A stretch of 33,264 bases of DNA from Aeromicrobium sp. (GTDB lineage: Bacteria; Actinomycetota; Actinomycetes; Propionibacteriales; Nocardioidaceae): NCBI GenBank assembly GCA_025965175.1, contig JAOPXL010000230.1:1-33264 (forward strand), read 5' to 3'. The notes beneath the pieces were generated by a model. It was not told the DNA's origin and did no database searches. It saw nothing but the letters and a program-made list of their open reading frames with translations. Positions 6,561 to 13,066 of the stretch are shown here, piece by piece (position 1 is the first letter of the stretch; every line of letters starts with the position of its first letter). Both the position numbers and the translations under genes were made by a program.

Positions 6561-6780
6561 AACGCGTGGACCGCTGACCCGGATCGCCCGCTCCAGCGCG
6601 CCTGATCGGTACCCGGCGCCAGCCGAGGCAGTGTTTTCGACGACCCGGGTTCGGCCAGCCTGCTTGCTGAAGGCCGTTGCGTGCTGTTCACTCCACGTAC
6701 AGACACGTTGTCAGGTCCGGATGTCTGGGCCCGGCAGCCTGTGCGGGTCCCGTCCGGGGACCCAGAACTGGAGACCTGCC

Positions 6781-7896
6781 ATGAAGCGAACCATTCGAAG
6801 TGCCGCCGTCGTCATCTCTCTCGCCGCGCTGGGACTCGCGGCCTGCGGGGGTCCGCCGGACAAGAAGTCCGACAGCACCACCGAGGCCGCGAGCGCGACG
6901 TCCGCCAAGGACCTCGGGGGCATGAGCGCGCTGGTGAAGGCGGCCAAGAAGGAGGGCACGCTCAACGTCATCGCCCTGCCGCCGACCTGGGCCAACTACG
7001 GCAAGATCATCACGGCGTTCGAGGACAAGTACGGCATCAAGGTCACGTCCGCGCAGCCGGACGCAGCCAGCCAGGACGAGATCAACGCTGCCAACACCCT
7101 CAAGGGCACGAAGCGGGCGCCGGACGTGTTCGACCTCGGCCAGTCCGTCGCTCTGGCCAACACCGACATGTTCGCGCCCTACAAGGTGGCGACCTTCGAC
7201 TCGGTCCCCAAGCAGTTCAAGGACGCGAACGGCACCTGGGTCAACGACTACGGCGGATTCATGTCGGTCGGATTCGACACCAAGAAGGTCCCCGAGGTCA
7301 CGAGCCTGGACGACCTGCTCGGGGCGAAGTTCAAGGGCAAGGTCGCGCTCAACGGTGACCCGACCCAGGCCGGTGCTGCGTTCAGTGGCGTCGTGATGGC
7401 GGCGATCGCCAACGGTGGATCGGCGGACGACGTCGCCCCCGGCGTGGACTACTTCGGCAAGCTGAAGGAGGCCGGCAACTTCCTGCCGGTCGACCCGACC
7501 CCGGCGACGATCGAGTCAGGTCAGACTCCGGTCGTCATCGACTGGGACTACACGAACACGGCCGAGACCGCGAAGCTGCCGTCCTGGAAGGTCGTGGTGC
7601 CCGAGGGCGCCGCGGTCGGCGGCTACTACTACCAGGCCATCAACAAGGATGCGCCGCACCCCGCTGCGGCCCGCCTGTGGCAGGAGTTCCTCTACTCCGA
7701 CGACGGGCAGAACCTCTTCCTCGGCGGCGGGGCGCGCCCGGTCCGCGCGGACGCGATGAAGTCGGACGGGACGCTCGACGCCGCCGCGTACGACAAGCTG
7801 CCCGCGGTGCAGGGCGATCCGGTCCTGCTCACCGAGAAGCAGACCAAGACCGCGGCTGACTACCTGTCGAAGAACTGGTCCAAGGTCGCCGGCTGA
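6781..7896 (+). CDS. ABC transporter substrate-binding lipoprotein (polyamine/iron-type)
   Basis: Lipobox LAALGLAACGG; extracellular solute-binding fold; followed by two permeases and an ATPase. Confidence 0.9.
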   Translation: MKRTIRSAAVVISLAALGLAACGGPPDKKSDSTTEAASATSAKDLGGMSALVKAAKKEGTLNVIALPPTWANYGKIITAFEDKYGIKVTSAQPDAASQDEINAANTLKGTKRAPDVFDLGQSVALANTDMFAPYKVATFDSVPKQFKDANGTWVNDYGGFMSVGFDTKKVPEVTSLDDLLGAKFKGKVALNGDPTQAGAAFSGVVMAAIANGGSADDVAPGVDYFGKLKEAGNFLPVDPTPATIESGQTPVVIDWDYTNTAETAKLPSWKVVVPEGAAVGGYYYQAINKDAPHPAAARLWQEFLYSDDGQNLFLGGGARPVRADAMKSDGTLDAAAYDKLPAVQGDPVLLTEKQTKTAADYLSKNWSKVAG

Positions 7897-7910
7897 ATGG
7901 GCCGACAGCC

Positions 7911-8765
7911 GTGAGCCGAGGCGTACGGCGCCTGGTCCCGGTCCTGGGCCTGGTGCCGTTCCTCGGCTACCTGACGATATTCCTGCTGATCCCCACAGTT
8001 TCCGTGGTGGTGGGAGCCTTCGTCGAGAAGGACCGAGCGAGCCTGTCCAACATCCGGGCCCTCGGCGACGAGGTCGTGCTGCGCACGCTGTGGCGCAGCA
8101 TCGAGCTGTCCGCCGAGAGCGCGATCATCGGGGCCGTGCTGGGCGCGTTGCTGGCGTACGCTGTGGTGACGGGCAGACCGGACGGGACGCTCCGACGTTC
8201 CGTGACGAGTGCGTGCGGGGTGCTGGCGCAGTTCGGCGGAGTCACCCTGGCATTCGCATTCATCGCGACGCTCGGGTTCTCCGGTGTCGTGACCGAGGCC
8301 GGTCGGGACGTCCTCGGCGTTGACCTGTTCGGCAGCGGTTGGCTGTTCGGCCTGAAGGGGCTGACGCTGGTCTACACCTACTTCCAGATCCCGCTCATGG
8401 TCATCGTGTTCCTTCCGTCCCTCGACGGCATGCGGTCGCAGTGGCGTGAGGCTGCCGAGAGCCTGGGTGCGTCCACCTGGCAGTTCTGGCGGTACGTCGC
8501 CGGTCCGCTGCTGCTGCCGGCGTTCCTCGGGTCGACCCTGTTGCTGTTCGCGAACGCCTTCGCCGCGTACGCGACGGCAGCCGCCCTCGTGAGCCAGGGC
8601 AGCCCGATCCTGCCGTTGCTCATCCGCAACGCCCTGACCAGCGAGATCGTCCTGGGCCAGAGTCACCTGGCCTTCGCGCTGGCCCTGGACATGATCGTCG
8701 TGGTCGTCGTCGTCATGACGATGTACGCCCTGCTCCTGCGCCGGACCTCTAGGTGGCTGCGATGA
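7911..8765 (+). CDS. ABC transporter permease
   Basis: Multiple TM segments; EAA-type loop (EAAESLGASTWQFWRYVAGPLLLPA); GTG start. Confidence 0.9.
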   Translation: MSRGVRRLVPVLGLVPFLGYLTIFLLIPTVSVVVGAFVEKDRASLSNIRALGDEVVLRTLWRSIELSAESAIIGAVLGALLAYAVVTGRPDGTLRRSVTSACGVLAQFGGVTLAFAFIATLGFSGVVTEAGRDVLGVDLFGSGWLFGLKGLTLVYTYFQIPLMVIVFLPSLDGMRSQWREAAESLGASTWQFWRYVAGPLLLPAFLGSTLLLFANAFAAYATAAALVSQGSPILPLLIRNALTSEIVLGQSHLAFALALDMIVVVVVVMTMYALLLRRTSRWLR

Positions 8766-9598
8766 CCACGGCACGCGTGCGCGCGCATCGCCGGCTGCAG
8801 GCGTTCCGCGTCGTGGTGCTCACCGTCCTGGGCCTGTTCTTCCTGGTCCCGCTGGGCTCGATGGCCGCCTACAGCGTCCGGGTGCCGGCCGGCGGGCGCA
8901 CTCTCGACTTCTGGAGACAGCTCGGCCAGGACCCCGATCTGCGGGGCGCCATCGTGACGTCGTTGGAGCTCTCGTTGCTGACGGTCGTCCTGATGCTGGT
9001 GCTCCTGGTGCCCACCATGGTCTGGGTCCGGCTGCGGGTTCCCGGCATGTCGCGGATCGTCGAGTTCCTGTGCCTGCTGCCGCTGACGATCCCCGCGATC
9101 GTCCTGGTGGTGGGACTCAAGGGTGTCTACGCCTGGGTGACCTACTTCCTGGGCGACTCGAGCCTCACCCTGACCTTCGCGTACGTCGTGCTGGTGCTGC
9201 CGTACGCCTACCGCTCGATCGACGCCGGCCTGGCGTCGATCGACGTCGTCACGTTGTCCGAGGCCGCCCGGGGTCTCGGCGCCGGCTGGTTCACCGTCAT
9301 CACCCGGATCATCGTGCCCAACATCGGGGCTGCGCTGCTGTCGGCGGCCTTCATCTCGGTGGCCCTCGTGCTCGGTGAGTTCACCCTCGCCTCGCTGCTG
9401 AGCTACACCAACCTGCAGGTCGTCATCAACCTGCTGGGCAAGAGCGACAGCCAGACGTCGGTCGCGGCCTCCCTGGCGTCCTTGGTGTTCGCCTTCGTGC
9501 TGCTGATCCTGCTGTCCCTGGTGGGCCGGCGGCGTGGCGCACGCCGCACCGCGCCGGCCCTCGACCTGATGGCACCACCCGTTGCGAAAGAAGGATGA
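8762..9598 (+). CDS. ABC transporter permease
   Basis: Multiple TM segments; EAARGLGAGWFTVITRIIVPNIGAAL; ATGA overlap with the upstream gene. Confidence 0.9.
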   Translation: MTTARVRAHRRLQAFRVVVLTVLGLFFLVPLGSMAAYSVRVPAGGRTLDFWRQLGQDPDLRGAIVTSLELSLLTVVLMLVLLVPTMVWVRLRVPGMSRIVEFLCLLPLTIPAIVLVVGLKGVYAWVTYFLGDSSLTLTFAYVVLVLPYAYRSIDAGLASIDVVTLSEAARGLGAGWFTVITRIIVPNIGAALLSAAFISVALVLGEFTLASLLSYTNLQVVINLLGKSDSQTSVAASLASLVFAFVLLILLSLVGRRRGARRTAPALDLMAPPVAKEG

Positions 9599-9601
9599 GT
9601 C

Positions 9602-10666
9602 ATGATCGCCACGTCGACCGGCGCGCGGGAGGGCCTCGAGGTACGTCTGGAGGACCTGCGACGCAGATTCGGGACCGTCACCGCGCTGGACGGGTTGTCC
9701 TTGACCCTTGCCCCCGGTGAGCTGGTGGCTCTGCTGGGTCCTTCCGGCTGCGGGAAGACGACGGCGTTGCGCATCGTCGCCGGACTCGACGAGCCCGACA
9801 GTGGTCGCGTCGTGGTGGGCGACCGTGACGTCACGGACGTGTCGGCCAACAAGCGCGACATGGGCATGGTGTTCCAGGCGTACAGCCTGTTCCCGCACAT
9901 GACGGCCCAGCAGAACGTCGAGTTCGGCCTCAAGCTGCGGGGGCACGACTCGACGCGACGCCGGGCCCGGGCCGGTGAGGTGCTGGACCTGGTCGGGCTG
10001 TCGTCGCAGAAGGACAAGTACGCCGGACAGATGTCCGGGGGGCAGCAGCAGCGTGTGGCGCTGGCGCGTGCACTCGCCATCGAGCCGTCGGTGCTGCTCC
10101 TGGACGAGCCGCTGTCGGCCCTGGACGCGAAGGTGCGGGCGCAGCTGCGCGACGAGATCCGACGGGTCCAGCTGGAGGTGGGTACGACGACCCTGTTCGT
10201 CACCCACGACCAGGAGGAGGCGCTGGCGATCGCGGACCGGGTCGGCGTCATGAGCCAAGGCAGGCTCGAACAGCTCGACGCCCCGGAGGCGCTCTACTCG
10301 AGGCCGGGCAGTGCCTTCGTCGCCTCGTTCGTCGGGCTCATGAACCGCGTCCCGTGCGAGGTGCAGGGCGGACGTGCCACGTTGCTCGGGACGTCGGTCA
10401 CCACGCTCGACGGGTCCGTCCACGGCGGACGCGGCGTCGCACTCGTGCGCCCCGAGCAGGTGCAGGTGGCCGCTGGCGGGGACGACGCCACCGTCGTCCA
10501 CATCAGCTTCCTCGGCTCGTTCTCGAGGGTCACGGCACGACTCGTCGAGGGCACGGAGCTGATCGTGCAGACACCGTCCGCGACCGTGCAGGACCTGCGG
10601 ATCGGGGACCGCGTGGGGCTGAGCCTGCTCGCGGACGATCTGCTGGTCTCGGCCACGACGGACTGA
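9602..10666 (+). CDS. ABC transporter ATP-binding protein (PotA-like)
   Basis: Walker A GPSGCGKTT, signature MSGGQQQRVALARAL, Walker B LLLDEPLSALD, C-terminal TOBE-like region. Confidence 0.95.
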   Translation: MIATSTGAREGLEVRLEDLRRRFGTVTALDGLSLTLAPGELVALLGPSGCGKTTALRIVAGLDEPDSGRVVVGDRDVTDVSANKRDMGMVFQAYSLFPHMTAQQNVEFGLKLRGHDSTRRRARAGEVLDLVGLSSQKDKYAGQMSGGQQQRVALARALAIEPSVLLLDEPLSALDAKVRAQLRDEIRRVQLEVGTTTLFVTHDQEEALAIADRVGVMSQGRLEQLDAPEALYSRPGSAFVASFVGLMNRVPCEVQGGRATLLGTSVTTLDGSVHGGRGVALVRPEQVQVAAGGDDATVVHISFLGSFSRVTARLVEGTELIVQTPSATVQDLRIGDRVGLSLLADDLLVSATTD

Positions 10667-10676
10667 GCCCTCGAGG

Positions 10677-11585
10677 TCAGTCGCTCCTGCTGATGGCCAC
10701 CAGCTCGTGCAGCGGCACCGGGTTGTCCCGCGTGGCGCGGCAGGTGAGCTGGAGCTGGTAGGCGCCGGGCGCCGTGCGGACCTGCACCGCCCACCGGACG
10801 CCGTCGACCTCGAAGACTGCGTCGGTCAGGCCGGCGCTGATCCGGCGCGACACGAGTCGTACGGAGTCCATCCGGGCCTCGCCGAGCTCCCGTCGCAGCG
10901 CTATCTCCGCGAACTGGACCGGCATCGCATACGACGAACGTCCGCGCAGATGGTCGAGGTCGAGCTCGTCGGCAGCGAGGCGATCGGCGATCGCAAGCGA
11001 GGACGCGGCGTCGAGGCGTCCGTAGTACAGCCCCTCGGGGAGCACCAGCATGTTGCCCGCGAACCGGTCGCCCCCGATGTGCGACACCTCCCAGGTGTCG
11101 TCCGGGTGGGTCGCCGCCAGGGCCGCAGCGACCGGACGACCGCGTTCGGCGCAGCACGCGTCGTGGCGACCGTGCGTGCAGACGCACAACAGTCTTCCGT
11201 CGAACGGCGTCAGGCCGGGGGAGCGGCCCGCGCCCAACGCGACCAGGTCGAGGGCGAGCAGCTGGTGGGGATCGGTCAGCACCGTGGTCTGCATCCAAGG
11301 ACGGGAAGGGTGCGCGAATGCCGCGAAAACCCGGATTCCCTCCGGATGGGTGCTGCGGTCGGGCCGGCGCACGAGCAGTGGCCGGACCCGCGCCGAGGCG
11401 GCCGCGCGGAGCACAGCCTCGCCCAGCCCGTCAGGCAGCCGGGCGTCGCGCAGCGCGTTGACGCCCCACGGTCCGGGGTGCTCGACCAGCAGGAACGCGC
11501 GTACGTTCGACGCCGTGCCGGTGGCGGGTTCCTCGCGCCGCTGGCTGGTGGTGGCGCAGCGGAACGCGGGGTCGCGCGAGGTCAC
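10677..11585 (-). CDS. Suc_Fer-like (sucrase/ferredoxin-like) thioredoxin-fold [2Fe-2S] protein
   Basis: LCVCTHGRHDACCAERGRPVAAAL...WEVSHIGGDRFAGNMLVLPEGLYYGRL matches Suc_Fer-like family motifs. Confidence 0.85.
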   Translation of the reverse strand: MTSRDPAFRCATTSQRREEPATGTASNVRAFLLVEHPGPWGVNALRDARLPDGLGEAVLRAAASARVRPLLVRRPDRSTHPEGIRVFAAFAHPSRPWMQTTVLTDPHQLLALDLVALGAGRSPGLTPFDGRLLCVCTHGRHDACCAERGRPVAAALAATHPDDTWEVSHIGGDRFAGNMLVLPEGLYYGRLDAASSLAIADRLAADELDLDHLRGRSSYAMPVQFAEIALRRELGEARMDSVRLVSRRISAGLTDAVFEVDGVRWAVQVRTAPGAYQLQLTCRATRDNPVPLHELVAISRSD

Positions 11586-12709
11586 CGGACGACCTCGAGC
11601 AATCCTTCCCGGACGAGGCGGCGGCAGAGCACGAGCCGGCTCTGCGGGTCGAGAGTGTCGGCCAGATCGGCAGCAGTGAGCTCGTCGCGTGTGCGCAGCT
11701 CGTCCAGGGCCGGCCGCAGCCAGCCGGGCATGTCGAGGGAGCGGTCACCCAGCAGCACCTCGACCCTGTCGCCACGCGCGATCAGCACGCACGGATGACC
11801 GGGCCGGCGGCGCAGCTGCGTGTCGTCGGCGATCGAGTCAGCGGACAGGACGTCGTGCAGCCCCCCTGCGAGGCGGGGGCTGCGGGTCGTGAGGAACCGA
11901 CGGATCTCGGTCTCGACCGCCGTGCCCGCGTCGACCTCGCGGATCTGAGCGGCCAGCGACTCGAGCTGGTGGGCGAGCTCGTCGGCGAGCGGTCGGGGAT
12001 CGTCGAGATATCCGGCCGGCAGGTGCTGGTCGGGCACCGCTGCGACGAGGTCGGCGACGCTGCGCTCCAGCAGACCGCGCCACGTGAGCTGGTTGATGCC
12101 GATCGTGACGTGCAGCGAGACGGTGTCCTGCGCACGCGCGGCGTGCGGGGTGCCGGTGGGCAGGTACATCGACAGCCCGGGCTCCAGGAGCACGTCCTCG
12201 GCCCCGTCGGGGCCGTGGACCTCCCACTGCTTCGAGCCGGCGGTCTGGAACACGAACACGTCGTGGGTGTCCGAGTGCACCGCGAAACCCTGGGCGCCGG
12301 GCGGGGTGAGGTAGGCGTTGGCCTGGCACGGGTGCCCGAGCTCGAGCTCGAGCTCGGCGACCAGCCGGGTGATCGGCAGCCAGTAGCGGTGCAGTCCCTG
12401 GAGGACGATCGTGGCGCCCCCCTCGAACAGGGCCAGCGCCTTGCGGGAGTCCACCAGGCCGGTCAGCGGCTTGCCGGCGAGGGTCGCCCCGCGGGTGTAG
12501 GAGGACTCGGGCAGCACGGCCCCGTCCTGGGCCAGCCGGATGGACGGGGTACGGATCGCGGAGGACGTGAGCAGCGTGTCGATGTCGTCCAACGACAGCA
12601 GGGCGAGCAGCTCAGGATCGGCGCGGTGCAGGTGCACCCGCGACGCCCAGACCTTCGTCAGGAAGGTCTGGGCGTCCCCGCTGAGCAGGTCGAGCGCGGA
12701 GTTGGGCAC
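11582..12709 (-). CDS. Cupin_4/JmjC-type 2-oxoglutarate-dependent oxygenase (ROX family-like)
   Basis: HSDTHDVFVFQTAGSKQWEVHGP with downstream TPHAARAQ..SLHVTIGI, the HxD...H arrangement of ROX enzymes; GTG start; ATGA-type overlap with the Suc_Fer-like gene. Confidence 0.85.
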   Translation of the reverse strand: MPNSALDLLSGDAQTFLTKVWASRVHLHRADPELLALLSLDDIDTLLTSSAIRTPSIRLAQDGAVLPESSYTRGATLAGKPLTGLVDSRKALALFEGGATIVLQGLHRYWLPITRLVAELELELGHPCQANAYLTPPGAQGFAVHSDTHDVFVFQTAGSKQWEVHGPDGAEDVLLEPGLSMYLPTGTPHAARAQDTVSLHVTIGINQLTWRGLLERSVADLVAAVPDQHLPAGYLDDPRPLADELAHQLESLAAQIREVDAGTAVETEIRRFLTTRSPRLAGGLHDVLSADSIADDTQLRRRPGHPCVLIARGDRVEVLLGDRSLDMPGWLRPALDELRTRDELTAADLADTLDPQSRLVLCRRLVREGLLEVVR

Positions 12710-12711
12710 GG

Positions 12712-12957
12712 TCAGGACGCGTCGCCGTCCGTGGTGTCCTTGGCGTCGCCGTCGGTGCCGTCGGAGTCCGCCCCGTCGCCGTCGGTGCCGTCGGAGTCCG
12801 TGGTGTCGCCGTCGGTCGTGTCCGTGGCGTCGCCATCGGTGCCGTCGGCGTCACCGCCGTCCGTGCCGTCGGCGTCGCCTCCGGGAGCCGGCGTGCCGCC
12901 TGCCGGGCTGCTGGTGATGTCGTCGTCGTTGAGCGGCTCTTCGGGGGTGGTCGTCAT
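12712..12957 (-). CDS. 81-aa Asp/Gly/Thr-rich repeat peptide (candidate precursor/substrate of the adjacent oxygenase)
   Basis: MTTTPEEPLNDDDITSSPAGGTPAPGG followed by six [TG]TDG[GD] units; strong RBS AGGAGG upstream; stop codon 2 nt before the oxygenase GTG start. Confidence 0.75.
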   Translation of the reverse strand: MTTTPEEPLNDDDITSSPAGGTPAPGGDADGTDGGDADGTDGDATDTTDGDTTDSDGTDGDGADSDGTDGDAKDTTDGDAS

Positions 12958-13066
12958 ACGTCCTCCTGGGTGCGAAGTGGCTGACCGCCCCGGACGGGCG
13001 GCTCCTACAGTCTGCTGCCACGTCCGTGGCCCGACAAGCGGGGAGTGACAGATCTTCGGCGGGGCT

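Follow-up and report, generated by a model that had tools for sequence, protein, structure and literature searches.

A widespread actinobacterial gene cassette of an aspartate-repeat peptide, a PF08007 oxygenase and an HX3D Suc_Fer protein, most likely a new RiPP-like class

A short aspartate-repeat peptide, a JmjC_2/cupin_4 (PF08007) 2-oxoglutarate (2OG) oxygenase and a Suc_Fer (PF06999) protein are encoded together in a three-gene cassette that is widespread in actinobacteria, and the association of these genes is far beyond chance. We propose that the cassette is RiPP-like, and that the oxygenase probably oxidizes core aspartates of the peptide under the guidance of a leader, with Suc_Fer as the electron donor. 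The cassette most likely constitutes a new RiPP-like class, which is to be distinguished from a proven RiPP.

Organization and distribution of the cassette

The window analyzed here (the whole stretch of 33,264 nucleotides from Aeromicrobium sp., contig JAOPXL010000230.1) carries the three genes on its minus strand, in the order peptide (12712–12957), oxygenase (11582–12709) and Suc_Fer (10677–11585). The tight coupling that an earlier note on this DNA had described can be read in the sequence: the TGA of the peptide gene is followed after 2 nt by the GTG of the oxygenase gene at 12709, and the oxygenase TGA and the Suc_Fer GTG share 4 nt (GTGA, 11585–11582). An AGGAGG ribosome-binding site (12962–12967, minus strand) was read directly, 4 nt 5′ of the ATG of the peptide gene. 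The source genome contains a single PF08007 gene and a single PF06999 gene, both inside the cassette. Convergent with the cassette lies an ABC importer operon (6631–10666; SBP_bac_6, two BPD_transp_1 permeases and an ATPase with TOBE_2), which we take to be of the type known from iron or spermidine/thiamine uptake, and which is not conserved next to the cassette in other loci.

Genome neighborhood had been named in the earlier note as the check on this association, and the expected neighbors were indeed found. A scan of 85,462 species genomes identified 80 loci, mostly in Nocardioides, Aeromicrobium and Marmoricola, and also in Microlunatus speluncae and Nostocoides japonicum; all 78 loci with enough upstream DNA carry a repeat-peptide ORF directly upstream of the oxygenase. 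For divergent homologues, 395 genomes of the class were searched and 80 regions of falling score were taken, among which the repeat ORF is present in 45 of 51 loci with an oxygenase profile score ≥175 bits, in 1 of 7 between 130 and 175 bits, and in none of 22 below 130 bits. Overall, the peptide ORF was detected upstream in 124 of 158 loci, whereas none of the remaining 12,795 ORFs in these loci passed the criterion used. This criterion was chosen after the data had been seen, and background and low-score controls were judged by it identically. It replaced a first detector (18% Asp) that was too strict for peptides of the DGGA class.

The third gene follows the same pattern. Suc_Fer is encoded downstream in 116 of 123 peptide loci, vs. 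1 of 34 loci without a detected peptide (Fisher, 7e-26), and PF08007 homologues of low score that lack the peptide lack Suc_Fer as well. The sole Suc_Fer-positive locus among the 34 is L144; here the peptide was missed by the criterion, yet VALDDSDMKTT...DTDGTDSSDSDGTD is visible by eye. Among the loci from the species genomes, one uncut locus (L065) is without a downstream Suc_Fer gene. In another locus (L194) the oxygenase is split in two ORFs while peptide and Suc_Fer are present, corresponding to a broken or frameshifted copy or to a sequencing error.

No other conserved neighbors were found among the 78 loci with 4–7 kb flanks, the remaining clusters being antisense shadows or scattered, and no dedicated protease or transporter is conserved near the cassette in this set. 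Such functions are not needed by every RiPP class, but their absence is unusual for an exported RiPP. The genes adjoining the cassette in the window (MFS, TetR, methyltransferase, ABC) were rejected as members, as they are not conserved elsewhere. We also rejected a role in anti-phage defence (no PADLOC match), a phage origin (nothing in the phage collection matched) and plasmid carriage, for which the search returned only Streptomyces clavuligerus homologues of ~31% identity in a different context.

A phylum-wide search found the same cassette in other classes of the phylum. Within the genus its distribution is patchy, the close version of the oxygenase occurring in 8 of 37 same-genus genomes, with the source genome counted. 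A distant version was observed in 6 genomes of the genus, and never together with the close version among the 37 searched.

Features of the peptide, the oxygenase and Suc_Fer

The peptide gene (12712–12957, minus strand) encodes 81 amino acids, 24 of which are Asp (MTTTPEEPLNDDDITSSPAGGTPAPGGDADGTDGG...DTTDGDAS), and is supported as a gene by its ORF, by purifying selection and by the homologous upstream ORFs. The peptide has no Pfam family, and nothing exceeded the cut-off in NCBIfam. Between the gene (GC3 of 0.91) and its homologue from an Aeromicrobium MAG (L033), 13 differences are synonymous and 4 nonsynonymous; for the core alone, the numbers are 8 and 2, respectively. As synonymous changes outnumber nonsynonymous ones in this comparison, also within the core, the repeats are maintained as protein.

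Near the N-terminus, residues 8–16 (12910–12936, minus strand) form the leader motif PLNDDDITS, recognized by its conservation, with the consensus LxDDD[MI]xT or near it. The pattern L/V-x-[DE][DES][DEM] occurs in 77 of 78 peptides of the Nocardioides-type set vs. 167 of 1560 shuffled sequences (~11%). Many further peptides carry the variant MALDDDDMTT, and VEGLTDEDIETV is found in other classes; the DDD leader motif is missing from one clade, that with EGPADGGAEGTPGVHDGGADGGA repeats.

The Asp-repeat core of the window peptide (residues 28–81; 12715–12876, minus strand) was delimited by autocorrelation and Asp context, and its aspartates show a periodicity of 5, 8 and 13 residues. Core types in other loci include DADGTDGDATDTTDG, DGGADGGADGGA, EGTADGGSNPEGHDGGADGTA and the rarer DGTDQGVEGGTYGPRD, with variable length and unit, and the type tracks the oxygenase tree, DxDG cores belonging to one clade and DGGA cores to another. 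In the last 40 residues of the 124 peptides, Asp is never absent, whereas Ser is absent from 4, Thr from 15 and Asn from 103. None of the cores detected contains Cys, Tyr, Phe or Trp. The residue after Asp is almost always Gly, Ala, Ser or Thr; the most frequent pair is D-G (989 Asp residues across the 124 cores), and Asp-Asp is avoided (9 seen vs. ~480 expected). The repeats announced in the earlier note are real, but its pattern [TG]TDG[DG] is better given as Asp plus a small residue (D-G, D-A, D-S, D-T). The layout of a conserved leader before variable repeats is RiPP-like.

Some upstream ORFs depart from these types. Rare GPRD-type core units (DGTDQGVEGGTYGPRD, DGQDAGPGPDTGPRD) were seen in L228, L065 and L098, the first two of which have no adjacent Suc_Fer gene. 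In L174 and L180 the upstream peptide is non-repetitive, with a common D/E-rich tail (DDPEL.GADL.EDQ...GPT.EPGA) and no adjacent Suc_Fer gene; these may represent a related single-copy precursor type. Three low-scoring PF08007 genes (L205, L216 and L220) have other short ORFs directly upstream (e.g., MDPIEVEVEELTQVTSRDITAGGDSDGTDSSSDFI), which may encode distinct RiPP precursors that serve related oxygenases.

The oxygenase (11582–12709, minus strand; 375 aa, GTG start) was assigned to JmjC_2 (PF08007; 65.5 bits vs. a cut-off of 22, 4e-18), and the assignment is supported by conserved residues and an AlphaFold2 (AF2) model. Based on conservation and alignment with NO66, the HxD iron ligands are H145 and D147 (HSD, 12269–12277, minus strand), aligned with the HxD of NO66, and the third ligand is H189 (12143–12145, minus strand). 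These residues and K160 are invariant in alignment A1, and the metal ligands are at least 97% conserved over 116 loci. K160, which aligns with the Lys of NO66, is presumed to bind 2OG. The best PDB match of the model (pLDDT 90.6) is NO66, over the whole length (TM 0.71), followed by MINA53, YcfD and B. subtilis YxbC (Foldseek). The assignment to the ROX type in the earlier note is supported by these intact metal and 2OG residues and with the whole-length fold match to NO66, MINA53 and YcfD.

ROX enzymes in general carry a C-terminal winged helix. The predicted structure contains the full ROX architecture, comprising a DSBH, dimerization helices and a C-terminal winged helix (residues 299–373; 11591–11815, minus strand) that is a candidate leader-binding domain. 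According to DSSP, the modeled domain has strands at 308–312, 315–319 and 324–328 and helices at 329–339, 346–349 and 355–367. This βββ-ααα order agrees with the definition of an RRE in a recent study (PMC12710340); no PF05402/PqqD match was found in the Pfam scans. Being common to ROX enzymes, the winged helix is suggestive of leader binding rather than proof.

The Suc_Fer protein (10677–11585, minus strand; 302 aa, GTG start) matches Suc_Fer-like PF06999 (62.3 bits vs. a cut-off of 34.9, 8e-17), and its AF2 model (pLDDT 93.6) has a central thioredoxin-like [2Fe-2S] ferredoxin fold. Foldseek retrieved Aquifex TLF and Azotobacter FeSI (probability 1.00, target TM 0.71, E 0.01). The ligands of Aim32 are arranged as CX8C...HX3H (PMC8482512). 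Among the cassette proteins, CX8C (C136 to C145; 11151–11180, minus strand) is conserved in 119 of 119, and HX3D (H169...D173, HIGGD; 11067–11081, minus strand) in all 116 with a readable motif; C10 and C282 are also invariant. Suc_Fer proteins without a nearby oxygenase have HX3H, L264 excepted, and L264 sits in genome G100, whose peptide-oxygenase pair has no adjacent Suc_Fer gene. Judged by these motifs, the cassette Suc_Fer is a distinct subfamily within the family and does not belong to the bis-histidinyl type. In L118 we observed a second Suc_Fer paralogue, of the HX3H kind (THLGGH; 217–1086), immediately upstream of the cassette, so that both types occur side by side in one Nocardioidaceae genome.

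One unlinked HX3D Suc_Fer is present in each of G130, G117, G143 and G100, indicating that in these genomes the gene was separated rather than lost. Among other genomes whose peptide-oxygenase pair is unaccompanied by Suc_Fer, no Suc_Fer match was found in G145, G438, G241, G165, G607 and G692, and G756, G132 and G313 have Suc_Fer of the HX3H kind only. As some genomes keep peptide and oxygenase without any Suc_Fer, the protein is not essential everywhere. Its place in the system, as put forward in the earlier note, stands as that of a usual and specialized partner, but a dispensable one.

Proposed mechanism and alternative explanations

We suggest that the first gene encodes a precursor, in which the LxDDD[MI]xT motif would act as leader for the Asp-repeat core. 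The C-terminal winged helix of the oxygenase would hold this leader, while the enzyme would oxidize the repeated aspartates iteratively, most likely at the beta carbon to yield beta-hydroxyaspartate. The [2Fe-2S] cluster of Suc_Fer would give electrons, most likely keeping the catalytic iron, or iron bound to the product, in the Fe(II) state or returning it to that state. Such processing would yield a peptide that is strongly acidic, carries several hydroxyl groups and chelates metal, and that may stay active in the cell or leave by a non-dedicated route; with no conserved protease or exporter, it may be either a secreted natural product or an intracellular modified protein. More tentatively, the system can be read as a new RiPP-like class spread over Actinomycetota: one PF08007 oxygenase bearing an RRE would turn a genetically encoded Asp repeat into a poly-beta-hydroxyaspartyl metal-binding peptide, with the help of a [2Fe-2S] protein whose His/Asp ligand position is unusual.

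Aspartate is favored as the site because it is the only readily hydroxylated residue common to every core, and we favor its hydroxylation over that of threonine. Among the related protein hydroxylases, YcfD oxidizes a beta carbon, that of Arg81 of L16 (PMC4295552), and enzymatic beta-hydroxylation of Asp exists in RiPPs (SmaO, reported in PMC13097080). Threonine, which the earlier note had also considered as the modified residue, was rejected as a universal target on account of the 15 of 124 cores without Thr. Several observations weigh against leader-guided oxidation of aspartate: the core clade without the DDD leader motif, the lack of a conserved protease or transporter, unusual for an exported RiPP, and the genomes that have peptide and oxygenase without Suc_Fer. 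In addition, the known substrates of NO66, MINA53 and YcfD are His and Arg residues of ribosomal proteins, and not Asp.

The same cassette might perform other chemistry on the core, such as Thr/Ser hydroxylation, Gly backbone cleavage, D-G oxidation, or conversion of hydroxyaspartate as by SmaO/SmaX; we consider this unlikely. The frequent D-G bonds are chemically labile, and 2OG enzymes catalyze many reactions. Within RiPPs, SmaO/SmaX beta-hydroxylate Asp on the way to aminomalonate (PMC13097080), and an alpha-ketoglutarate enzyme with oxidative backbone cleavage is known (PMC12636437). Thr, however, cannot be the general site, and since the cassette has one oxygenase, the second step of a two-step pathway would have to come from a partner encoded elsewhere.

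It is improbable that the enzyme is a conventional ribosomal oxygenase with the acidic peptide as its unmodified partner (for example an inhibitor, chaperone or metal buffer). The best structural matches of the enzyme are ribosomal oxygenases, and mimicry of a nucleic acid or shielding of a basic ribosomal protein would be conceivable roles for an acidic peptide. However, ribosomal proteins are universal, whereas the cassette is patchy even within the genus; the repeats vary with the oxygenase clade; an expanding repeat core behind a conserved leader is the pattern of a substrate; and low-scoring PF08007 homologues that have no peptide have no Suc_Fer either. The gene context points to the peptide, rather than a ribosomal protein, as the target of the oxygenase. 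A mirror-tree correlation of 0.91, uncorrected for shared ancestry, counts for little.

It is very improbable that the cassette serves intracellular metal handling, with the Asp peptide as a Ca(II)/Fe buffer that Suc_Fer and oxygenase sense or load, modification being incidental. Asp-rich DxDG patterns resemble calcium-binding loops and an exporter or protease is not conserved, but the spacing found in known calcium loops is missing from cores such as DGGADGGADGGA (L172), and the Fe/2OG site is conserved in full, which speaks for catalysis. Finally, although the region is GC-rich and repeats may open several frames, the idea that the ORF is a low-complexity artefact with coincidental neighbors is refuted by the 0 of 12,795 background ORFs passing the criterion, the purifying selection in leader and core, and the conserved leader motif.

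Comparison with known systems

We found no description of the peptide or the cassette in family models or in the searched literature, which covered few subscription journals. If leader-guided oxidation of aspartate is correct, the bacterial PF08007 family, which is large and for the most part uncharacterized, gains a defined peptide substrate, and the cassette offers a testable case of iterative Asp hydroxylation encoded by a repeat gene. Poly-hydroxyaspartate would be expected to act as a chelator of iron or calcium, so that the system would be relevant to how a major bacterial phylum handles metals. The analysis also defines an HX3D Suc_Fer subfamily linked to one pathway.

The oxygenase shares with NO66, MINA53 and E. 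coli YcfD (RoxA) the whole-length fold (DSBH, helical domain and C-terminal winged helix), the HxD...H iron site and the aligned Lys in the 2OG region. In contrast to these enzymes, to which it is ~20% identical, it is accompanied by an Asp-repeat peptide and Suc_Fer, and it is accessory and patchy, with no ribosomal link seen.

The nearest prior art is a 2025 study that describes PF08007 proteins with RRE-like domains, and bacterial homologues, in RiPP-like contexts; in the text searched, it mentions neither the present cassette nor the repeat peptide or Suc_Fer (PMC12710340). In biphenomycin-type clusters, BpmG and PbsQ are JmjC or cupin hydroxylases, of which PbsQ hydroxylates a peptide ornithine (PMC12257519). 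Both the RRE-fused PF08007/JmjC RiPP pathways and BpmG/PbsQ resemble the cassette in having a JmjC/cupin-fold enzyme near a precursor peptide. There, however, the hydroxylase is one among several tailoring enzymes (MNIO, B12-rSAM, arginase), whereas in the cassette the oxygenase is the only enzyme with the repetitive Asp core.

SmaO/SmaX provide a parallel for beta-hydroxylation of peptide Asp in a RiPP, the reaction that we infer here. These are two oxygenases reported to modify a single linear peptide at its N-terminus, next to a graspetide synthetase (PMC13097080), while the cassette has one PF08007 enzyme and tandem repeats. Lastly, the cassette Suc_Fer shares PF06999, the TLF fold, CX8C and the first His with Apd1/Aim32-type proteins (PMC8482512), but differs from them in that the second His ligand is replaced by Asp (HX3D) in all readable cassette members.
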